Assembly (NCBI GenBank): GCA_963556695.1
Contig: CAUWAG010000006.1
Location: 1-64,000, forward strand
DNA: 64,000 nucleotides
Direction: 5' to 3'
Origin: Anthostomella pinea
Taxonomy: Eukaryota > Ascomycota > Sordariomycetes > Xylariales > Xylariaceae
Under the pieces are notes generated by a model, which saw nothing but the letters and a program-made list of their open reading frames with translations, had not been told where the DNA came from and searched no databases. This document shows, piece after piece, positions 1-36,250 of this stretch. How positions within the stretch are numbered: the stretch's first letter is position 1; each line of letters begins with the position of its first letter. The translations under genes and the position numbers were made by a program.

Positions 1-41
1 ACCCTAACCCTAACCCTAACCCTAACCCTAACCCTAACCCT
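1..41. repeat. Telomeric repeat array (CCCTAA)n
   Basis: Six perfect CCCTAA units followed by a partial CCCT. This is the C-rich strand of a TTAGGG telomere, so the left edge of the window is the chromosome end with the telomere tip to the left. The array is short, probably because the assembly stops inside it. It passes without spacer into retroelement coding sequence at about position 42. Confidence 0.97.
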
Positions 42-42
42 T

Positions 43-1452
43 GCTAAGGACGTTCTTAATCCAAACTGGCAAGAGATCCAACAGTATCTTAACGAGAAGC
101 AGTACCTTGTAAAGATCACGGACAAAAATCTAGGACTGAGCGTCATATCTATAGACTGGTATAGAGAACAAGTGCAGAATCACCTGAATAACAGTGTTGC
201 TTATGAGCTTCATCCTGTGGACTTTAGGATTCTAAATCTAGAACTAGAAGACATCTACAACCTCACAAACCTACCATCACAAATACGAGAGTATCTGCAG
301 GGTAGTTTCAGGGTGGTACCCCGGCTTCATGTGATTCCCAAGATTCACAAGCAGCCGTGGAATTCACGCCCCATCATCCCCAGCCACAGCTGGATCACCT
401 CAAGGGTGGCAAAGGTTATAGATTGGGCACTTCAACCCCTTCTCTCCAACTATCCCTCTGTGCTTACCAGCACAAAGGATCTGATCACGGGCATCAGGAA
501 TATAGAAGGGCCTCTGGACAATCTCTGGCTGGTATCAGGCGATGTAAGCGCCATGTATACTAATATACCAAAGGAGGACGCGATGCAAGCAATTGACAAC
601 ATCCTTCCTCCGGTCCAGAGAAGACTGAAGAAATGGTGGATAAGAAAGATGATGGAATACGTCTTGTCCAACAACTTCTTCGAGTACCAAGGAGCTACAT
701 ACAAGCAGAGATCAGGACTGGCAATGGGAGTGGCCTGCGCCCCCATTATTGCCAACCTGTTCTGTGCTATATATGAAAAAGGCCAATTTAAATATCGCAA
801 TAAGCATGTCAAGTACTACGGTCGCTACATTGATGATATCTTCATGGTCTTCCAAGGTACAGAAACCGAAGTGAAATCCTTTATCCAAGGGTGGAAGTTC
901 CCAAACCTCACGGTACACTGGGAGTACTCTCGCACCTCGGTCTCTTTTCTTGATGTAGAAATAATTGTTCATGACGGAATAATAATTACAAAATTATTCG
1001 AGAAAGCTTTGAATAAGCATCAATATATTCCCTTCTCATCAGCTCATCCGTTGACCGTCAAACGGGGCTTTGTTAAAGCCGAGCGCATGAGATATCGTAT
1101 TATCTGTAGTCGGGATACCGACTGCCTACATGCAGAAGACAGATTATACTACAACCTCTTACGGCGTGGATACCCAGTGAGAGAATTGGATCAGTGGTTC
1201 AGCGAAAGTCTTGAGGATAAAACCGAAAGGACAGAGCCCAAATTTATTCTACTATCAGAATATAATCCAATATGGGAATATATCCGTATAGGGCCCGTCA
1301 AGGAGATATTGCTACGATATTCCCGAGGTGAACTTCTAGGTATCAATGACCTGGTCACCTCGCTGCAACGGGGTAGGAATATGTATGACCATATAAACCT
1401 ACATAATTTAACACTGTTAGAAGTGCTAGAAACCTCAGAGAATAATACCTAG
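43..1452 (+). CDS. Penelope-like reverse transcriptase, N-terminally truncated at the telomere
   Basis: The frame is open from the telomere junction (and through the repeats themselves) to the TAG at 1450-1452, about 469 codons. Near the start is the PLE N-terminal core motif with DKNLGL (about 121-138). Then come PRLHVIPKIHK (about 322-354), RT motif A with GDVSAMYTN (about 538-564), the motif B region with GLAMGVACAPIIANLF (about 715-762), the catalytic YIDD in YYGRYIDDIF (about 815-844) and SFLDVEI (about 943-963). The C-terminal tail has no GIY-YIG endonuclease domain, which marks the EN-minus PLE class. No internal stop or frameshift is seen, so the copy is young or under constraint. The missing start is a real truncation: no initiator ATG lies before the core motifs. 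Confidence 0.9.
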   Translation, partial: AKDVLNPNWQEIQQYLNEKQYLVKITDKNLGLSVISIDWYREQVQNHLNNSVAYELHPVDFRILNLELEDIYNLTNLPSQIREYLQGSFRVVPRLHVIPKIHKQPWNSRPIIPSHSWITSRVAKVIDWALQPLLSNYPSVLTSTKDLITGIRNIEGPLDNLWLVSGDVSAMYTNIPKEDAMQAIDNILPPVQRRLKKWWIRKMMEYVLSNNFFEYQGATYKQRSGLAMGVACAPIIANLFCAIYEKGQFKYRNKHVKYYGRYIDDIFMVFQGTETEVKSFIQGWKFPNLTVHWEYSRTSVSFLDVEIIVHDGIIITKLFEKALNKHQYIPFSSAHPLTVKRGFVKAERMRYRIICSRDTDCLHAEDRLYYNLLRRGYPVRELDQWFSESLEDKTERTEPKFILLSEYNPIWEYIRIGPVKEILLRYSRGELLGINDLVTSLQRGRNMYDHINLHNLTLLEVLETSENNT

Positions 1453-1733
1453 GTGAGCCATGAACTCCCCGCTTGCGGGAGGGAGTCAGCAGCCTAGGTG
1501 AAAACTGGGTGTGCTGAGAATCAGAACGTTCTTGGCGGTTTGTTCTGTTGTAACCATGGCGCCGCAATGCGCTATGGGAAATAGTACTCTCACCGTCTTT
1601 TCTCTGAGACTATAGCATTATCTTGCAAGATTCCCTATATATATACACTTTGTTTATTGTTCTTCTACTTAAAGAAAAACAAGGGTGGTTTCATGGTTCA
1701 AATATCGGTTTAGAAAAAGGTTCAAACCCTTCA

Positions 1734-1785
1734 CCCTAACCCTATGCTATCCTGACCCTAACCCTAGCCACCCTAACCCTATCCA
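1734..1785 (+). repeat. Interstitial telomeric repeats (degenerate)
   Basis: Three CCCTAACCCTA blocks (1734-1744, 1756-1766, 1771-1781) are separated by short non-telomeric spacers. They have the same orientation as the terminal telomere. They lie about 280 bp after the reverse transcriptase stop codon, in the 3' region of the element or at the boundary to a second unit. Confidence 0.85.
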
Positions 1786-2177
1786 TAGGATATAGAAAGA
1801 CAAGCACAAAGAAAGAGACATACTAGCACAAGTCATGTGTCATGGTGTATCCATGACATACCTTGTGAAACTAGGAATATCTTGTGTATACACAAACATG
1901 AGAATGGATTATCAAGCTCTCTTGCCTCTGCTATGCCGCGAACTTGAAGAGAATATGCAGCTTTGACTCTCAGACTGGGGGAGTTGAGTAGCCCGATGCT
2001 TGGTAATCCGGGGGGTTGTCCCTCCGGGTTGGTAAGCAGCGGGGTATTAGACTATCCGAGCTGAGTCATTCAAGGCGGTATTAGAAATCAAGTTCTAAAA
2101 GCCGAAGCGCGATATCTCCTATCTCTATGTATGTACCTTTCTTCTGATAATATATATCAAAAGAATTTCGCTATACA

Positions 2178-2229
2178 GAGTCCCTGAAGAGCCATAGGCG
2201 AAACTACTGTCACGACGGTAGTTGGACTC
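2178..2229 (+). ncRNA. Hammerhead ribozyme (type I-like, minimal)
   Basis: All conserved elements occur in order. Stem I is GAGTCC (2178-2183) paired with GGACTC (2224-2229). The core CTGAAGA (2184-2190) fits CUGANGA. Stem II is a 3-bp GCC/GGC stem with an ATA loop (2191-2199). GAAA is at 2200-2203. Stem III is CTACTG (2204-2209) paired with CGGTAG (2216-2221, one G-U pair) around a 6-nt loop. The cleavage triplet GUU follows (2221-2223), with predicted cleavage after 2223. The very short stem II is common in hammerheads carried by retroelements, and hammerheads have been described in Penelope-like elements. It sits on the coding strand of the PLE, 48 bp before the inner telomeric repeats. 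Activity is inferred from the intact core, not tested. Confidence 0.88.
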
Positions 2230-2276
2230 CTTTGCTCTCAGAATTCAACGCTGCTCACTCGCGCTTCGCGCTCGTT

Positions 2277-2293
2277 CCTAACCCTAACCCTAA
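2277..2293 (+). repeat. Inner telomeric tract, probable old telomere-addition site
   Basis: CCTAACCCTAACCCTAA ends the PLE-like region and abuts a pogo-like transposase remnant on the other strand at 2294. It has the same orientation as the present telomere, so it most simply marks a former chromosome end. Confidence 0.8.
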
Positions 2294-2582
2294 TCTTCTG
2301 GATGATGTACCTCATATTGGCGTGAGTAGGGGCATGGCCGGCCTTTTCTTAGTACAGAATCCATAAAATTACCTTCTTTTCTTGAGCAGGGCTTATTTTC
2401 TGCCCGTGAATATGTCCTTTATGCTGAGTACCAGTTGTAGGTATTGTGGAGTCTTTAATTTTGTGAGAAAGGGTGGTTTTTGGTATTCTATAGCGCTGGG
2501 CAGCCTTCTAGAGGGACAGATCGTCACTGTTCACAGCGGCTATCGCTTCAATAAGGTCTTTTTCGGTATATAAAGGCGCCAT
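2294..2582 (-). pseudogene. Pogo/Fot1-like transposase, N-terminal fragment cut by telomeric repeats
   Basis: Read leftward from an ATG at 2582-2580, the frame gives a Psq-type helix-turn-helix start (TEKDLIEAIAAV, then KAAQRYRIPKTTLSHKI) and the following CENP-B-like segment (SPAQEKK, then EKAGHAPTHA). This order is typical of fungal pogo-class DDE transposases. Two in-frame stops break it, one inside the Psq domain and one just before EKAGHAPTHA. The reading frame runs into the telomeric repeats at 2293, so the rest of the transposase (DDE domain) was lost when the chromosome end formed here. Confidence 0.75.
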
Positions 2583-3213
2583 TTCGACGTACTAAAGCTT
2601 ATAATGCTTACAGAAAAAAAAGAAAAAAAGAACCGCAGAACTTCTGCCTGGTTAGAGGGGATAGGGGGCACGGGTCTCATTACCCCTCAGATTAGGGCCG
2701 GACGTGCTAACTTCCGACCCCCGCCACGGGACATCCCGCTGTAGGACACCTATTAAATTCCACATTGGAAGAAACACTATGAAAAGAAGATTCAGACGAT
2801 ATATTTACGATATCTACAGCTTCGATCCCGATAGAGATGTGGGTGGGTGCAAATGTTGTGTTTTGGTGGGGGAACTGTCCCATCTGGGGGGCTGTCCCAT
2901 CTGCTTGCCCCCGCCGTTATCTTCTAGCTAACACGCGGGACACGGACTACTTGTGTCCATCTCAACACGTCCCGTGACTCAGCTTTCGTTTTATGTCACA
3001 ACATGGGGATGGAGCATAAAAGTTATTGCCTACAATAGACCATCAAGTCGCTAATTCATGAATATAAGCACGCCGTAGCTATGAGATGATCGTCCGCACT
3101 GGAGTGGCCATGACAGCCAACACCGTCGGTCCGGACCACCCTCGCGTAAACGAGACTGGCGAGGGAACCGTGATATGCCACGGAGACTCTGACTCGTCCT
3201 CGTGTCATAAGTC
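2583..3213. other. No gene recognised
   Basis: AT-rich at first with A-runs near 2612-2630, then short overlapping small frames with no recognisable domain. It may include the flank or terminal repeat of the pogo-like element, but I could not find a matching terminal inverted repeat. Confidence 0.5.
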
Positions 3214-4824: not shown

Positions 4825-5532
4825 CTATTGAGAGGACGAATCACAAGACTGAAAGATTTGCGAGCATACCTGCGTGGGTATTCTACTTGAGCATAGGACA
4901 TTGAAAATAGAAGTTGTTCTCATCCCGGCTTTCGCCAATAACTACCCTTGTCGCGTCTGTCTGCCAATGGTGCACATATTCCGCTAACTTGGTGAACAAG
5001 ATTGGAGGACTTCATGTGGTGCGGTCTTGAAGCTGGATCTGATTCCTGTGTCTGGTCCTTTGGTGAGGCTGGTCGAAGGTATTCGAGCCGTCAATAAGAA
5101 AGTCTCCGATGGCATACCCTACAGCAGTGTCCATGAGGCCATAACTTAGTATAGATAACCCGCACCATAGCCACGCGGCTAACTAAATGTGTTACCATGC
5201 AGATATCAGATTGGTATCCTCCCCATGCTATTTCCTGGACTTGCTTCTCAGGGTCATATCTCTATCCTCGCCGACAGCATTCATTGATCGGTGCCAAGCA
5301 TGCCATCCGCCTGCCTTAGACAGTCACAGAAACTGAACGTGGAGTTATGGATCTGCTGCTCACGAGAAGTTCCTTGCGCGTGCTGTATTCTGTTAAGGCG
5401 CTACCTTATGGGCGGATACGCATCTCTCATAGTAGGATCGGATCCTTGTTGGTTTCCCTCATTTTGTCTCAAGGAGATCATGAAGAAGACAGAGGGCTTC
5501 AGTATGGATCCAGACACCATCGAGCAGCACCG
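4825..5532. other. No clear gene; left flank of the solo LTR
   Basis: Short frames only. The last 60 bp before the LTR (about 5473-5532) can be read in frame with the sequence resuming at 6011, so the LTR may have split a gene, possibly the regulator whose C-terminal part is recognisable from about 6200. I cannot name anything between 4825 and 5470. Confidence 0.35.
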
Positions 5533-6005
5533 TGTTACGAACCAACAAACGGGACAGGGGATAAGGCCTGTTGGCAGGCCCGACCAAGAATCATAGGACA
5601 AGAACGTACGGTAACGCACAGACCAGAAAGAAGTCTAGGTCACGTGATCCAGGGGATAGCTGGGATAGCCAGCTATCCAAGATATCCAGGATCGCTGGAG
5701 TCGCTAGCGATCCCAGATATCCAGCCCATCAGTGATGGAGAGATTGGATATATAAGGATGGACATTTCCTAGCTAGCACAGATTGACAGTCTCTACCTCA
5801 GTGATCAATCTAAGCATCTTAGCCAACACTAAGGTGGGAGAAATCTCCTGACGACTCGACTATTCAGTGAACCGAGTTCAGACCAAGCCCCAGCATCTGA
5901 GTGTCTTCTAGTTGACAGAAGCCTCTATCGTCCTTTGTGTTAACTTACCTCAGAACATAAACCCTATAGAACCCTTTAGCCTTATAGGTTAGACGGCTCG
6001 TCACA
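5533..6005 (+). mobile_element. Solo LTR with 5-bp target-site duplication
   Basis: The 473-bp segment starts TGTTACGA and ends TCGTCACA, an imperfect terminal inverted repeat of LTR type. It is flanked on both sides by the same pentamer CACCG (5528-5532 and 6006-6010). A TATATAAGG box lies at about 5750, suggesting + orientation. Two perfect hairpins occur inside: GGATAGCTGG/CCAGCTATCC (5654-5678) and GGATCGCT/AGCGATCC (5689-5713). No internal retrotransposon sequence is present, so it is a solo LTR left by recombination. A related LTR start occurs at 6675. Confidence 0.85.
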
Positions 6006-9752: not shown

Positions 9753-10721
9753 CTATTTGGATAAGGCCCTGTATGACTTAACTGCTGCTTTGCATTCGTC
9801 GTTCCACCAAGCAGTGGATCTATACTGTCGGGGCTTCTTGCCCACTATCTTGACGCAGCCTTGGATCACGTCGATCAAGCTCTGCGTAAAGACATCCACC
9901 TGGCCAGGGGATGCACCCAGCTGGGGGAGCTCGTGGATCCTGTTCTGGACATTATCAGCTAGCTCCTGTAGTTTATCGTCCGGTACTATCCAGCGATTGG
10001 CTTTGGGGACCCGGTCAAGATCTCCCTGAATTAGAACGACTATTTTTAATGTCTCGTGATCTAAGGTGCACTGGAGTGCATCATTGACCGAAGCTTCGGC
10101 CATAGGGACATCTGAGAAGACAAGATCCAATACGTTTCCGTCGTCATGTGTCGGGACATCTGGCTCGGAGATCAGATCCAGTCCGTGATCTGCCATAGTC
10201 TGCACAAGTGTAGCACCCCTATGATAACCTGGATTGCTCGAGTCCCAAGATGTGTCGCCAGCATTGAAATCGCCGGCTATGACACTGTCGAAGGGTGGGT
10301 CCTATACTTCCAGAATGTCGTCTACTTCCTGCGGATTGTCGCATGGTCTGTAGACACTAGCGAACGTGATGCCTCGTACCTTGACCCAAGTGATGTCTCT
10401 TGTGGCATAAGGCCGAAGTTGGTCTGCTTGAAGGTGTTTTCTCATATAGATGAGAGATCTAGGTCGTGTACTGTCGCTGTCCCAGGAATCCACCGGGGAA
10501 TAGATATCATAATTTGGGTGCGTCTTTACTCCCATCCTCCTGCAAGGTGGTATGCCGACCCAGGGCTCTTGTATCAAAATGATGTCCGCTTGCTCTCCTT
10601 TATAGTCAGCCAGGTTAATGGCCAACTCCGTAGGGCCTGCACTCCTTTGTCCTCCTGCCGCATTCACGGAATGGACGACCAGATGTCCGTGTCGATGTTT
10701 TTCGTTTGGTGTACCTAGCAT
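9753..10721 (-). pseudogene. LINE ORF2 start: APE-type endonuclease domain (broken)
   Basis: The ORF2 ATG (10721-10719) overlaps the ORF1 stop, the sequence ATGCTAG joining both. The first stretch (10302-10721) carries IILIQEPWVG with the catalytic Glu. A stop interrupts it before AGDFNAGDTSWD, and the next stretch (9753-10205) carries GNVLDLVFSD. These are the standard motifs of the apurinic-endonuclease fold that nicks the LINE target. The end of this piece leads into the linker before the reverse transcriptase. Confidence 0.85.
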
Positions 10722-12052
10722 TGACGAACAATAATGGTATTGGGGCCCCTGGTATGAGCTGTATTTGTCGTGTCGACTTGCATTGTGGTGTCTTCGCTGC
10801 TGTTACTAGGCATTGACTCAGCTTGAGTTCTGCCTGCTTCGTTGAAGGCCCTGGATCTGGCTCTTTCTCCAGCCAGCCTTATTTCCTGGATTTGCTCCCA
10901 TGTGGGCTTATGGATGATACCTTTCACGACCTTAGGGCGTGCAGGGCATTTGTTGAAGTCGGCAGCATGAGGCCTCCTGCAATTGATGCACTTTGGGATT
11001 GGTTTTTTGCACTCCCCCTGGTGTACCGCGCTGGCGCAGCGTACGCATATTTGCTTTTCACATTGGTAGTTCCTACTATGGTATCTGAAGCAGCTCGCAC
11101 ACTGGCGAACCTTGGGGGCGTATTGAATGTGCCTCGAGGTCATCGAGTGAGCAAAAAGCGTGAATGGTTTCTTCACTGCACGGGGCAGAGAGATCACCCA
11201 CATGGTCTCTGGATCGGAATCAACCGTGTTCCTTGAGATCATGCACCTCAAAGGTCTGTCGCATGTTTGGGCTTTGACTTCGTCAGCGACGGCAGCGTTG
11301 GTAATGTCGACTGTAAGCCCTTCTGCACTCATAACCTTTCTTGGGCATCTATCGACCTTATAGTGATGCCAGACTGTGTGGGTCTCGATCTTTTCTGCTT
11401 TGAGAATATCAGTGATTTCTTCTTGGAAGGCTAGGAGCTTAGCCTGAGTTGGCTTGTCCCTTAGGTGTAAGGTAAATCTAGAGGGGCACCGGGTCACTTC
11501 TCTAAGCTCTTGAGGGTGGAGCTTAAGTCTTCTGTTCAGTATAGACTTTATTCCGTAAGGCTCTAGGTGGCTATTATCTATGCGGACAAAGACCCGGAGA
11601 TTATCCTGCTTCTTCTTTAGTTGGTTGGCAGTGATACGGGCGCCAGGCTGTATTTTCTTTATGGTAATATTGACTGTCTGTGGATGCTGTCGTTGGCTAA
11701 AGGAGACAGTTTGGGCAAAGGTCATGGTGGGCTTTACCATCCCTATCCCCCCAGGGATGGTCTTCTTTTTAGGCAGATCTTGGGTTTCCAGCCACTCGCT
11801 CAGACATTTAGAGAAGAAAGCGCTGAACTCCTTGGCATGAGAGTATAATTTGGTTCCAGCTTTCTCAAGTGTCTTATCAACCACTGCAGCACACTCTTAA
11901 AATATTGTCATCCTGGCTTCATAAAGATGCTTGTCTTTAGCCAGTATTCTGGCAATTTGGTCCTGGCACTCTGAGGAGGAGGTTTTATTCTCTATACCGC
12001 GTGTAATGGCTTGGTCTGTCGAGATTTCGTTCAATTGAGGTTGTTTCATTCC
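10715..12052 (-). pseudogene. LINE ORF1, gag-like protein with zinc knuckles
   Basis: The open part 10715-11884 (389 codons) ends with Cys/His clusters (CASCFRYHS, CVRCASAVHQGEC, CINCRRPHAADFNKC), the nucleic-acid-binding knuckles of LINE gag proteins. The same frame continues upstream of a TAA at 11897-11899 to an ATG near 12052, so the ORF is broken by one stop that could be a former CAA. It binds element RNA in functional relatives. The stop of this ORF overlaps the ORF2 start. Confidence 0.85.
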
Positions 12053-26676: not shown

Positions 26677-29600
26677 ATGGCTGGCCCCAACGATTCTCAG
26701 GCCGTTGGCATCAAGGCAAGCTCTCCCCCCTGTCTGCACTCTGTGAACGACGCATGTGACTCTCTAACCCGTCATATCTGCAGGAACTTGGCATCATCAA
26801 CCAGTGCGTCAATTACGAGCCCACTGCGCTCCCGGGACAGGAATGGCGAGGTTATCCAGAGATTCCAACCGCTCGCGACCTGAACCCGGACTTGACCGAC
26901 CCAAAGCAGCTCGCTGAGGTCCAGAGTCTCCTGCCCAACAACTGGAGAGAGCCATGGAGTGAAAAGGACAAGTACCTGGAAACCCACTATCGCCTCCAGC
27001 GAGAGGAGGCAATCACCATGCTGCGATACTCCATCAAGAAGTACCAGGAGACGCCACGCATGATGGACGATGAGGAGACCTGTATCTACACCAAGGTTAG
27101 GGTTACCATCATGAGTTGTGTTTTGGTCTCGTGCTGACCACCTTCTCTGCCAGGTCTTCGTCAAGGGCTACTTGATGACACGCCTTGGCCCCATGTGCCG
27201 TGTGCAGTTCTCAACCGAGAGATCCGGCAAGAAGATCCGCTGGACCCAGACCCGCCGACTCACCACGGGGAGCCTCGTGGCCTTGTCGACCGCAGAAGAT
27301 GGCTTCAAAACCATCTGCCTGCCTGCTGTCATCGCCGACCATCCTATCCGCGACGGTCTAGATCAGAACCCTCCGACCATTCAGATTCACTGGGCAAGGT
27401 CAGAAGATGCCATCGTAGACCCGACAGCCGAGTTGGTCATCATCGAGGCTCGGACCGGCTACTTCGAGGCCGTGCGCCACAGCATGGTTGGCCTTCAACA
27501 TGTTGCCATGACGGACACCCCGATCGACAAATACCTAGTCGGCGCCGACAAGGGCGACTATGCAGCACAGTATGTGCAGCAGAGCCCTGAGATGAACATC
27601 AGGTCGCTTGTGCATCACGTTCCGAACTCTGCGGGCATGTCCAAAGCTGCCGTCCGACAGAAGATAACCGAAGCCAAGGAACCTCTGGCCAACGCGAACG
27701 TCATTAGAGGTCTCAATGACAATCTGTCCCCGTACACAAACCTCGACAACTCCCAGCTCAGCGCCGTACATCGTATTCTCACAAGAGAACTTGCCATCGT
27801 CCAGGGTCCTCCCGGTACCGGCAAGACGTTCACGTCTGTGCAAGCACTACGGATCCTATTGGAGACGCAAGAACGTGGAAGCAACGTCATCATCGTCGCA
27901 GCCCAGACGAACCATGCCGTCGACCAGATCCTGATTCAGCTGGTCAAGCTCGGTTTTGACGCCGTCCGACTTGGTGGCCGCAGTCAAAACGAGGAGATCA
28001 AACGTTACAGCATGTACAACCTGCGACGCCAGAAGCTGGCCTCTTTCAGACAACGGGCGGATGGGGATTACAAGACGTGCGAATCTGCGCGGAAGAAGAA
28101 TATTTCCAATCTGGAGTGCATGGTCAACGATGTTTTCCCTGGAGGTTTGGTCGATCCGGCGAACCTTCTCGACGCCGGCATCATCACGGTACAGCAGATG
28201 GAGTCTCTGGGATACGACGACGACCAATGGGCTGCTGAACCGCTGCAAGACCGCCCCGCGGGCTCACTTTCCGAGTGGCTGGGGGATGATATGGTGGAGG
28301 CGCCCCCTATGGCCTTCAAGGATCCCGTCTTCGAAACTCCGGAGAATGACGATGCTGTCGACCTCGATGCCGAGGACTACGACCTGGAGCTTGACGACTG
28401 TATCGTGGACGACGACGACGATCGCGGGAGGGTTGATGGCAAGTGGATCCCAATCCGACATCGATGGATCGGTGCGAACCCTCATGGATACTCCGGGACT
28501 GAACTCGTCATTCGCCGAGAGCGAGCGAAGCCGAACTTGTGGGACATTGAGCAGGAACACCGTGGTACCGTCTACGAGTACTGGCAGAGGCAGTTGCTCC
28601 GTGTGCGCGCCGAAGAGTTCCGCGAGGCTTTGGCAGATAACACCCGTATCTGCAAGAGCCTGAAGATCAATCGCTGGTACAAGGACACGCAATATATCAA
28701 GTCGAGCAAGATCGAGATCATCGGGTGCACTACAACGGGTCTCTGCAAGTACCGTGGTTTTCTCTCTGCGCTGCAACCCCGAACCATGCTGATCGAAGAG
28801 GCGGCCGAGACGCGAGAGGCCAACATCATGTCGGCGCTGTACGGGTCCCTCCAGCAGCTCATCCTCGTTGGCGACCACCAGCAGTTGGCACCGCACTGCG
28901 ACACGCCACGGCTCGCCGACGAGCCATACTGTATGCGCGTGTCCATGTTCGAGCGGCTGGTCAAGCTGAACATGCCATTCACTGTTCTGAACATGCAGCG
29001 CCGTATGATTCCCATCTTGCGGGAAGTGCTGAATCCGTTCTATCCAATGCTGCAAGACCATCCTGTTGTCACCAAGAAGGACGCGCGCCCTCCGGTTCCA
29101 GGCATGTCGGTCGAGTCTTACTTCTTCCATCATACCTGGACCGAAGACACGGACGAAAACCTCAGCAAGTTCAACCTCCTGGAGGCCGACATGGTTGTTC
29201 GCTTCATCGACTACCTCCTGATGAACGGAGTTGATGCAGCCCAGATCACGGTATTGACCTTCTACCGTGGACAGCGCAAGCAGATCATATCAGAGGCGCG
29301 AAAGCAGCTCTCGCACTGGGCGCCTTTCAACAATGTCCAAACGGTGGATTCATACCAGGGCGAGGAGAACGACATCGTCATTCTCTCTCTGGTGCGTAGC
29401 AACGGGCCCAACGGCCCCCACAGGCCAGGCTTCCTCCGGGATTGCAACCGTGGTGTGGTGTCCATCAGCCGCGCGCGACGAGGATTCTACATCTTTGGCA
29501 ACATGACCAACCTGACGGAAGGGGGCGAAGAGTCTCGGTACATGTGGGGCAATGTCGAGAAGGTGTTCAAGCTCCAGAAGAGATTCGGAGACAGCGAGAC

Positions 29601-30924
29601 CGGACTTCCAATCACCTGTCAACGGCATGGGACCACGAGCCGCATACGCCACCCCGAGGATTGGATGCTCCACCACGGTGGCTGCAAGCTGCCATGTCCA
29701 GATAAGCTCAGCTGTGGTCATCCGTGTGGACGTCGTTGCCATTGGTAAGTAACTACCCTCATTTTCCCACAGGTTTGGTCTCGCGGTCAGGCCGAGTATG
29801 CTGACAGTTCGCCTAGGGTGGACCACAACCGTCTCATCTGCCTACAGCCCTGTGAGAAGACCCTTCGATGTGGCCACCGATGCCAAGAGGTCTGCGGTGA
29901 GGGTTGCGTCTGCAACTGTTCCGATTTTACCGGCGCATATGCCCACGATGAGGACTGGGATGCGGACACAGCATTGGACGACCAAGAGATGGGCGTCGAG
30001 TTCAATCCCGGTCTTGGCGCAGCTTCGTTCGGTCAGGGGGGTCAGCGCACCACCAGGCGAGGCGACCAGCACGGAAACTACCGATACGGTTCACGTGGGC
30101 GCAGAGGAGGCCTTGGATACAACGGCGGCCGCGCTCAGGCTCCTAACCTCAGTGATACCACCGGTCACGGTACAGAGGCACGCTCGGGTAACGCCCAACA
30201 CCTGCCTTGGGGCGCCTTTGATGCTCGGCAGGACGATGCTCGGCGACGCGGAGCCCACGGCCCAAGCCTTGTCGTCGATGCTCCTCACGCCTCGGGCTCC
30301 AGCAGGATGCCCCGTTACAAGGAGACGTGGCGTCATGTCACCCTGTCTAACGGCGGCAAACGCAACGTCGGGAGAGGTAACGTTATCGTGTCTGGAAGCA
30401 GTGGCACGCCTTCACCCGAGAAGGACGATCCTCATTTATCTGCTAAACCTACCTCGCGCGGTGAGGCGCCAGTGACGGACCTGTTGAGCTTCAATGATAC
30501 TGTCCGTACAGAAGCTCTGGTTCTGCCCTTACGGCTCCATGAAATCAACCAGTCCAAAGTATCCACAAACACCTTCATTAACCCCGATCGTTCAGACGCT
30601 GAGGTAGTTGCCAGCACTCCTGCCCGACAAGCACAACGTTCTTTCAAAGCTCCTGGTGCTTTCCAATACGACGGTCAGCCCAACGACGGCGATTTGGCTG
30701 GGTCGTCTGCTGCCTCCTTGCGGTTCTCGGGACGGAACGACTTCGCTGACCAGGGACCACAATTCCTGCAGCGCATTCGGCCTCTGGTGAACCCTACCAC
30801 GGACGCCGGCCGTCAGCTCGATAAGCCGGAATGGGAGGTTGCGAGCACGGTGGTGGACGAGTCGAACAATGGCGACGCAGATGACGTTGATGACAAGGAG
30901 GAGGAGGATCTTATACACTTCTGA
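26677..30924 (+). CDS. sad-3-like: NF-X1 zinc-finger helicase, Hrr1/SAD-3/ZNFX1-like
   Basis: Superfamily 1 RNA helicase. Fission yeast Hrr1 acts with RNA-dependent RNA polymerase in heterochromatic RNAi, and Neurospora SAD-3 is needed for meiotic silencing. Exons by my reading: 26677-26715, 26784-27095, 27154-29744, 29817-30924, giving about 1349 residues. The first intron starts GC rather than GT (AAG/GCAAGC). Motifs in order: Walker A VQGPPGTGKTFTS (about 27801-27839), Walker B-like LIEEAAET (about 28789-28812), VGDHQQLAPH, VQTVDSYQGEENDIVILSL and VSISRARRGFYIFGN. A Cys/His NF-X1 cluster spans the last intron (HHGGCKLPCPDKLSCGHPC, then CEKTLRCGHRCQEVC). A low-complexity Gly/Arg-rich and disordered tail of about 300 residues follows. 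No breaks are seen. The assignment to the helicase subfamily is firm; orthology to sad-3 is likely. Confidence 0.9.
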
Positions 30925-34849: not shown

Positions 34850-36250
34850 TCAGCCAGCCTGGTAGATGGCCAAAGCGTTGACGAAGGGGTTGATCATGGT
34901 CAAGTTGAACGGCGTCACGGGCAACTCCCGGTCCGTGATGGCCAGGAACATGGTGCCGTTGGCCGCTGGGTCACCCTCGTACGTGGAGGTGTTGGGTTGG
35001 ATCGTGTACGCCGTGTTGCCGCTGATGTTCATCAAGGGCGAGTAGGTCACGTTGAGCTGGGACACCCAGGCAGCGAACTTGGGGCTGCCCGCGGTGGTCG
35101 AGGTCACGTAGCTGTTGTTGGGACCGACGGGTAGGCCGGGCTCGTCCCAAGACAGGAAGACCTGGCGGCCAGGGTACGACAAGGGGATAGACCGGTTGTG
35201 TGTGATGGCAGGCGCACAGCTCTCGCCCTGCTTGGTAGCATCCACACAGGCCTCGCCGGCGTTGATGTCGGCAGTGCTGAGGGTGTTGGTGTACCCGGTG
35301 GTGGTCTCGTTCCAGACGTTGGAACCGTCAATGCGCGCCGGGTTGGGCTGGTTGAGGATGTTCAATGACGGGAAGTTCTGCCAGATGAGGCGGGTCTGGT
35401 CCTCGGGGCACGACGAGATGTACGGTGCCAGGAGCGTCCAAGCCCAGGATTGCGGAATACCGACTTCGAACCACACTGGCATGGGGAAGAGTCCTTCGAA
35501 CTGGCGGAAGATCATCTGCTGTCGGGCCTCGGTGGAGATGGACTGCAGCAGGAGCTGACCGGTCTCGCGAGAGTCGAGGTGGTTGAGGAAACCGTAGACG
35601 CCGGACTCTCCGAATCGGGTCAGCTTCTGCGAGAAGTCGATGTACTCGGTGACATTCATGGCCGGGTAGTTGTACGTGCACTGCTTGGGTGCTTGGGGCC
35701 CAAGCATGTTGGTGAGCAGAGTAGCATGACCGACTTCCTGATCGGCCATGAACTCCAGGAGGGCGCGGTCCTCGGCGGTAAGGCCTACAGCCTCAAAGTC
35801 CTCGACGGAAAAGGTGGCGAGTCCCCAGTGGAAGAGATCGAGCTCGATCCACTCCTGATACAGACCCAGTGCGATGGACTCGTAGTCGAAGTCGCTCTGG
35901 ACTCGGTACACGGGCTCGGAGCCATTGGTGCCTAGACCGCCAGCAGGGGTATAGGGGGCAGGCTGAGGCTCATGAAGCTTTCCGTCGGCGGGATACTGGA
36001 GCTTGTAGGGCTCGGGCGGGTGGGCGGCGACGGTGGCCGCCAGGACGACGGTCGAGAGTGCACCGGTGGTGGTTGGCGGCGGCCCGGTGTAAGATCCGTG
36101 AGAAGTGACGTTAGTGACAGGCACTGTTTCGTCGGTGACGGATGGCATGGAGGTGAAAGTAGTCGTTGCCTCGGAGACGACGGGGACTGCGAGAGTTCGC
36201 GAGACGAATGTGATGACGCTGGCGCGCGCCAGTGCCTTGTGTCCGACCAT
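34850..36250 (-). CDS. Rds1/LsdA-like protein with ferritin-like domain
   Basis: Single exon of 466 codons. Relatives are S. pombe Rds1 (stress-responsive) and Aspergillus LsdA (late sexual development); biochemical function is unknown. The N-terminus (MVGHKALARASVITFVSRTL) may be a weak signal sequence, followed by a Thr/Pro-rich stretch. The ferritin-2-type helical domain begins around residue 120 (IALGLYQEWIELDLFHWGL, then EFMADQEVGHATLLTNML) and includes the conserved Glu/His pairs. The C-terminal half is a beta-rich region with many N-glycosylation sites (NVT, NNS, NWS-like), fitting a secreted protein. TATATA lies at about 36327, some 75 bp before the start codon. Confidence 0.85.
   Translation of the reverse strand: MVGHKALARASVITFVSRTLAVPVVSEATTTFTSMPSVTDETVPVTNVTSHGSYTGPPPTTTGALSTVVLAATVAAHPPEPYKLQYPADGKLHEPQPAPYTPAGGLGTNGSEPVYRVQSDFDYESIALGLYQEWIELDLFHWGLATFSVEDFEAVGLTAEDRALLEFMADQEVGHATLLTNMLGPQAPKQCTYNYPAMNVTEYIDFSQKLTRFGESGVYGFLNHLDSRETGQLLLQSISTEARQQMIFRQFEGLFPMPVWFEVGIPQSWAWTLLAPYISSCPEDQTRLIWQNFPSLNILNQPNPARIDGSNVWNETTTGYTNTLSTADINAGEACVDATKQGESCAPAITHNRSIPLSYPGRQVFLSWDEPGLPVGPNNSYVTSTTAGSPKFAAWVSQLNVTYSPLMNISGNTAYTIQPNTSTYEGDPAANGTMFLAITDRELPVTPFNLTMINPFVNALAIYQAG

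Follow-up and report, generated by a model that had tools for sequence, protein, structure and literature searches.

A complete hammerhead ribozyme motif beside the 3'-terminal telomeric run of a putative telomere-attached Penelope-like element in an ascomycete

Introduction

At the left end of contig C4, a reverse transcriptase (RT) ORF adjoins the terminal telomeric repeats directly, with its 5' side cut off, and downstream of it a hammerhead ribozyme (HHR) motif lies shortly before a second, short telomeric run. What would a putative ribozyme do in such a place? It could be a fold beside a telomeric tail, or it could be what produces an RNA end, and the locus allows these two ideas to be separated. 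A preliminary description of this DNA had favoured the second, proposing that an intact hammerhead in a Penelope-like element (PLE) at an ascomycete telomere processes transcripts so as to leave a defined RNA whose 3' end is rich in CCCTAA. What makes the case valuable is that a single assembly offers seven mapped copies, that stem III of the ribozyme is long and closed, and that the junctions are exact.

Results

Organization of the chromosome end

The window, that is, the whole stretch of DNA analysed, comprises the first 64 kb of contig C4 in a 53.7-Mb assembly of 16 contigs. The features of the element are collected in Table 1. The RT reading frame is also open in the copy named C9L. The best named matches of a neighbouring ferritin-like gene (34850-36250) were about 82% identical and came from Xylariaceae and other Xylariales; judged from these matches, the host is an ascomycete of the Xylariales.

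Table 1. Features of the element and its surroundings at the left end of contig C4 (window positions)
Feature	Position	Strand	Evidence
Terminal telomeric repeats (CCCTAA); chromosome end at left	1..41	+	sequence
5'-truncated reverse transcriptase ORF (frame from 40), YIDD motif, ends without GIY-YIG domain	42..1452	+	RVT_1, E 1e-8
3' untranslated region, part 1	1453..1732	+	present in copies C4L and C9L only
Degenerate internal telomeric tract; start of 4/7 copies, merged there with terminal telomere	1733..1788	+	copy alignment
3' untranslated region, part 2	1789..2177	+	copy alignment
Rfam RF03152 RAGATH-1-hammerhead match, below gathering score	2151..2228	+	35.5 bits, E 0.0017
Hammerhead ribozyme motif: stem I, core CUGAAGA, stem II, GAA, stem III, U17	2178..2229	+	read, fold, descriptor
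Predicted cleavage site, after U2223	2223..2224	+	position within motif
GCUCUCAG, complement of core strand CUGA(A)GAGC 2184-2192; possible competing off-state	2234..2241	+	folding energies, weak
3'-terminal telomeric run CCTAACCCTAACCCTAA, element end	2277..2293	+	copy alignment
Host flank	2294..2920	+	90% identity to C7L 1936-2563, read as empty site, continuous past junction

The hammerhead motif and its predicted fold

A type I hammerhead is defined by the core CUGANGA, GAA, A15.1-U16.1 and an H17 other than G, together with three stems. All of these were found at 2178-2229, with zero mismatches in the core. Stem I pairs GAGTCC (2178-2183) with GGACTC (2224-2229), the core strand CTGAAGA occupies 2184-2190, stem II is GCC-ATA-GGC (2191-2199), GAA lies at 2200-2202, stem III (2203-2222) has 8 bp and a CACG loop, and T2223 is H17. 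A type I descriptor (core, stem II of at least 3 bp, stems III and I of at least 4 bp each) matched here alone when both strands of the 64 kb were searched, and 60 dinucleotide-shuffled versions of the window gave no match, on which ground a chance motif was rejected. The minimum-energy fold of the 52 nt is a three-way junction that additionally pairs A14 with U17 (-18.9 kcal/mol, z -3.0), and 2 of 200 shuffles folded as well. At the level of sequence, the reading of an intact hammerhead given in the preliminary description is confirmed, and cleavage is predicted after U2223. With its U17 and a stem II of 3 bp, the motif would probably cleave slowly. No second hammerhead was found elsewhere in the element by Rfam or the type I descriptor.

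In the longer RNA (2178-2294), the predicted ribozyme fold is less stable, by 4.6 kcal/mol, than an alternative fold in which 2234-2241 is paired with the core (ribozyme-constrained -24.9 versus free -29.5 kcal/mol). The alternative fold is identical in six copies tested, a set outside which C2L lies, and 101 of 2,000 shuffled tails (about 5%) formed an equally good anti-core helix. The strand at 2234-2241 is thus a possible off-state for the ribozyme, a weak suggestion from folding energies that also favours an inert motif.

Covariance-model and pattern searches

No Rfam family matched the window at the gathering level. When positions 1-3000 were ranked by E-value, the RF03152 match fell 20.8 bits short of the cut-off (35.5 versus 56.3 bits; E 0.0017 for 3 kb), and the four matches with E<=10 included neither RF00008 nor RF00163, nor any other hammerhead model. 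The Infernal check proposed in the preliminary description hence came out in part: a hammerhead family matched, below its cut-off, but the two families named there were not listed. In agreement with RF03152, model positions 1-77 are aligned in full, stem III is long and stem II is small; unlike it, the upstream hairpin is only weakly kept here, and the score stays under gathering. The possibility that this hairpin acts as a loop partner of stem II was set aside, as merely short complementarity was seen by eye.

The remaining telomeric copies (6/6) matched RF03152 with 32.4-37.7 bits (E 0.008-0.11 for 42 kb), and locus L044, an end without the element, gave no match to this model. A genome-wide RF03152 search, in which 58 of 5,049 candidates were scored, listed five matches (E 0.002-0.008), all of them element copies; C9L and C2L were not among the matches listed, and both matched as single loci. 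In control genomes, matches at E<=10 occurred in 8 of 14, none above the cut-off, and scores this weak are not rare at genome scale. The core pattern alone matched 12 times in the 53.7-Mb genome, namely in six element copies at chromosome ends and at six scattered places, and the reversed core pattern, used as a control, matched twice; the core pattern alone is weak evidence for a ribozyme. The case for the ribozyme is built instead on its full set of core bases and stems, on where it sits in the element and on its copies, and not on the Rfam score.

A pattern search also hit two IMG/VR contigs (L071 4913-4966 and L072 4949-5010), in which hammerhead-like cores are followed by CCCTAACCC within about 20-30 nt. 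These are probably unrelated viral hammerheads.

Copies at chromosome ends

Copies were sought in this one assembly by DNA search and by a scan of all 32 contig ends over 5.8-6.6 kb. The element adjoins seven of the 12 telomeric tracts (C2L, C4L, C5L, C5R, C7L, C9L and C14R), a count from which copies may be missing, as several contig ends lack telomeres in the assembly. Telomeric repeats without the element occur at C3L, C3R, C16L, C16R and C14L. The copies are 96-98% identical, and the hammerhead core is intact in six of the seven; in C2L, the G of GAA is changed to A. The recurrence of the motif at other chromosome ends, which the preliminary description had proposed to look for, was thereby borne out.

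In all seven telomeric copies, the 3' end points towards the centromere and the telomere lies on the 5' side. The 5' starts fall into about three classes: within the ORF (C4L at window position 42 and C9L at 49), at the internal telomeric tract (C5L, C5R, C7L and C14R) and at 2076 (C2L). So few classes would also be compatible with spread by recombination. A tblastn search of the assembly yielded two RT copies, both 5'-truncated, and none of full length, so that any present activity of the element is hypothetical. Comparison of the C4L and C9L RTs gave 17 differing codons (8 synonymous, 9 nonsynonymous), too few to judge selection on the RT.

The degenerate tract at 1733-1788, the truncation point of four copies, may be a seed for telomere regrowth or a site of recombination. 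It also bears on whether 1789 to 2293 is a separate non-autonomous unit, on top of which an RT element ending at about 1732 was attached. We consider this improbable. Four copies do consist of this part alone, with telomeric repeats bounding both sides; however, compared with its neighbours the tract is more degenerate, and C4L and C9L both have it, as for an inherited part of one element, and C5L retains its base pattern (TATCC).

One further copy is internal (C4:4704194-4705795, minus strand; L047 4195-5796). It comprises the 3' part of the element in two portions, 86% and 96% identical, and its ribozyme core is changed. A 1.35-kb Tc1-type transposon, whose ORF matches HTH_Tnp_Tc3_2 and DDE_3, interrupts it within stem III.

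The seven telomeric copies (5 distinct rows) are 99% alike in the ribozyme, and because they are so alike, no covariation could appear (0 compensatory changes). Two stem-III pairs vary on one side yet remain paired, and one outer stem-I pair is lost in one row. The motif could thus be an inert, hammerhead-like relic preserved through the youth of the copies, as would fit their high overall identity, the absence of covariation, the sub-cut-off Rfam score, the broken core in C2L and the internal copy, and the alternative fold of the longer RNA. Against this stand the complete core with its three stems, the 60 shuffled windows devoid of such a site, and the description of a hammerhead at this very place in telomeric PLEs of rotifers (PMC6431247, excerpts), and we regard an inert motif as unlikely.

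Both telomeric tracts of C14 sit inside the contig, 1.2 kb from its right end and 1.9 kb from its left end. Outside them lie about 1.9 kb (L044 1-1929) and 1.2 kb (L049 5403-6630) of non-telomeric DNA, either an assembly artefact or a real extension.

The shared 3' end and the host junctions

All seven copies end alike, in ...CTCGTT(C/T)CTAACCCTAACCCTAA, and their sequences diverge beyond this point into different flanks. The telomeric run before host sequence measures 17-18 nt in five of the seven and is about one repeat longer in C9L and C14R, so that the telomeric repeat between element and host sequence amounts to 17-23 nt only. For five copies (C4L, C9L, C5L, C2L and C14R), the flank could be compared with related sequence that runs on beyond the junction; the "empty sites" used are related repeats elsewhere in the genome rather than the allele, and the junctions rest on the assembly alone. 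The bases common to junction and empty site number 1 in C4L, 1 in C2L, 1-2 in C9L and 0 in C14R. Past the junction, telomeric repeats are absent from four of the five sites read, and the fifth, C5L, lies at a natural CCTAACCCTA-like stretch, where the border is not placeable to the base because related host copies read alike there. The flanks of C7L and C2L are dispersed repeats matched from the first base (at least 45 matches each, including the own place and fragments), and that of C5R has no relative in the genome.

These junctions suggest that the element joined ends on which little or no telomere was left, and that some of these ends lay inside ordinary repeats. The 17-nt run is not divisible between RNA and host, and the host share at attachment may have been up to 17-23 nt; prior healing by telomerase therefore remains a rival. 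In the published Terminon model, which names exposed G-rich repeats as the target (PMC6431247, excerpts), telomerase would first have added a few repeats to heal broken ends, and to these the element would then have attached. The extra repeat in C9L and C14R and the CCTAACCCTA-like stretch at C5L are in line with this order of events, which is possible though doubtful, given that healed ends should vary in length and the run is 17-18 nt in five of the seven copies.

Alternatively, the element could be immobile by itself, broken ends having captured it from other ends by microhomology-mediated break-induced replication starting at the CCCTAA run. The small number of 5'-start classes, the lack of a full-length copy in the tblastn search and the 0-2 nt common with the empty site at four of five junctions examined all speak for such a process. 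However, five of the seven copies share the same 3' end position, for which initiation at the end of a template is a better explanation than invasion anywhere in the run. Moreover, the 5' starts of C4L and C9L differ by 7 nt, and these two are not mutually closest in the 3' region. On balance, capture by replication appears rather unlikely.

Affiliation of the reverse transcriptase

At E<=0.001, the RT has 110 relatives, the named ones including Podosphaera, Pyricularia and Blumeria. A GIY-YIG domain was present in two of 35 rows scanned (34 relatives and the window's own), and the window RT aligns over 88% and 67% of its length with these GIY-YIG-bearing RTs (P0062 and P0069). None was found in the window RT ORF at E<=0.01, whose N-terminal part, where such a domain is possible, is absent. 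In a midpoint-rooted tree of 37 rows, the window RT falls beside three other sequences; the 12-member group to which they belong also contains the powdery mildew sequences, and both GIY-YIG carriers lie apart from it. The RVT_1 match, the GIY-YIG-bearing relatives and the tree assign the RT to the PLE lineage, as judged against a reference set without any sequence named as PLE. Matches among solved structures comprised two distinct sequences, both of the retron Ec67 RT (E 0.018). No RT relative was found in the viral collection, where 73 stretches matched a pattern and none was confirmed.

Reverse-complement telomeric 3' repeats, an inward 3' end and a telomere-truncated 5' end characterize all seven telomeric copies, and the HHR lies directly upstream of the 3' repeats. 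By this structure, the element is best classified as a telomere-attached, endonuclease (EN)-deficient PLE on the Athena/Terminon plan. Together with the host assignment, the RT and the copies thus uphold the earlier view of a hammerhead motif in a telomere-attached PLE of an ascomycete.

Discussion

The role of the ribozyme

Cleavage is predicted after 2223, and 53 nt separate this cut from the telomeric run, which lies downstream. The predicted products are an upstream RNA with the ORF and without the 3' telomeric run and a 70-nt downstream RNA carrying the run, and cleavage would therefore strip the tail from the coding RNA. All seven telomeric copies hold both sides of the cut, so that the copied templates must have been uncut, in agreement with an animal PLE whose ribozyme mutants insert normally in vitro (PMC11167929, excerpts). 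The proposal that ribozyme processing yields the CCCTAA-rich 3' end that primes at telomeres has in its favour the neighbourhood of ribozyme and run in 7/7 telomeric copies. It was nevertheless rejected on geometry and on the copies spanning the cut, and we give it hardly any probability. The published reading for rotifer elements, in which a 3'-terminal fold exposes the telomeric run and cleavage is regarded as auxiliary for template preprocessing (PMC6431247, excerpts), fits better than end processing.

The explanation that we consider probable is that the sequence is the 3' part of a telomere-attached, endonuclease-less PLE primed by broken ends, with the hammerhead as a 3'-end recognition fold. 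From the anatomy, the orientation, the copies at seven telomeric tracts, the common 3' end and the different flanks, we infer the following course of priming. A broken or eroded chromosome would offer its 3' end as primer to the RT, which would start at the 3'-terminal CCUAACCCUAACCCUAA of the RNA; host telomere would be nearly or entirely absent there (no more than the 17-23 nt now seen). Copying would then proceed through the ribozyme and on for a variable distance upstream, and the 5' truncation would be capped by telomerase. The ribozyme would most likely act as a folded element for recognition and positioning of the 3' end, rather than creating the end used in priming. Cleavage, if it occurs, would be a separate RNA-processing step removing the 70-nt telomeric tail, for example from read-through or surplus RNA. 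If attachment to broken, nearly telomere-less ends is true, such elements would be linked to chromosome healing.

A bolder version of this link, which taken as a whole we think quite unlikely, makes the element a natural healer of chromosome ends. An RNA with just 17 nt of telomere complement would let the RT seal broken ends inside ordinary transposons, and the hammerhead would be a switch deciding whether the tail is retained, cleavage removing the priming tail. The anti-core strand at 2234-2241 would keep the ribozyme off until the protein binds, and the internal degenerate telomeric tract would be a second seed for telomere regrowth upon end erosion.

Comparison with known systems

The closest counterparts are the Athena/Terminon elements of bdelloid rotifers, which likewise have an EN-less PLE RT, 5' truncation by telomeric repeats, and a 3' end made up of an HHR and, after it, reverse-complement telomeric repeats (PMC6431247, excerpts). 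Unlike them, the present element is fungal, has a CCCTAA repeat and places 53 nt between cut and run. Its junctions to host sequence lack telomeric repeats at four of five sites read, and no long arrays were present at the ends examined here. The 8-bp stem III also differs from PLE hammerheads, which are said to be usually minimal (PMC6155905, excerpts).

Among ascomycetes, telomere-localised PLEs are known from Mycosphaerella graminicola; they are subtelomeric, carry 1-3 TTAGGG units at the 3' end and point that end away from the telomere, as here (PMC4522978, excerpts). The comparison is by description and not by sequence, and the word "hammerhead" occurs 0 times in the text of PMC4522978 as retrieved. 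The FoTeR and MoTeR elements of Fusarium and Pyricularia are also telomere-associated retroelements of ascomycetes, and FoTeR copies have TAACCC 3' repeats (PMC12857005 and PMC10088271, excerpts); in contrast to the present element, they are non-LTR (LINE-type) elements, and the FoTeR paper has "ribozyme" 0 times in its retrieved text (PMC12857005). The PAc element of Anolis is a PLE with an HHR that inserts in vitro from unprocessed RNA; HHR mutants do not affect this insertion, and cleavage occurs only with added protein. Unlike the present element, PAc has a GIY-YIG endonuclease, and its HHR lies near the ORF start (PMC11167929, excerpts).

The novelty implied by the preliminary description is accordingly smaller, as an HHR with telomeric 3' repeats is known in rotifer Terminons (PMC6431247, excerpts) and telomeric PLEs in M. 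graminicola (PMC4522978, excerpts). What is new is a fungal member of the HHR-bearing telomeric PLE plan, one whose junctions are unusual. In the open-licence PMC literature, we found no hammerhead reported from a telomeric PLE of an ascomycete; primary papers could contain such a report.

Other observations

Further into the window, 27 kb from the chromosome end, an ORF at 27118-29748 has ZNFX1 and AAA helicase domains. A 389-aa ORF on the minus strand (10715-11884) has zinc-knuckle-like cysteines and by eye resembles a retrotransposon ORF1, with no Pfam match at E<=0.001. Elsewhere in the host genome, the rDNA spacer (L060, about 5030-5630) contains repeated TACCCTGTAG units.
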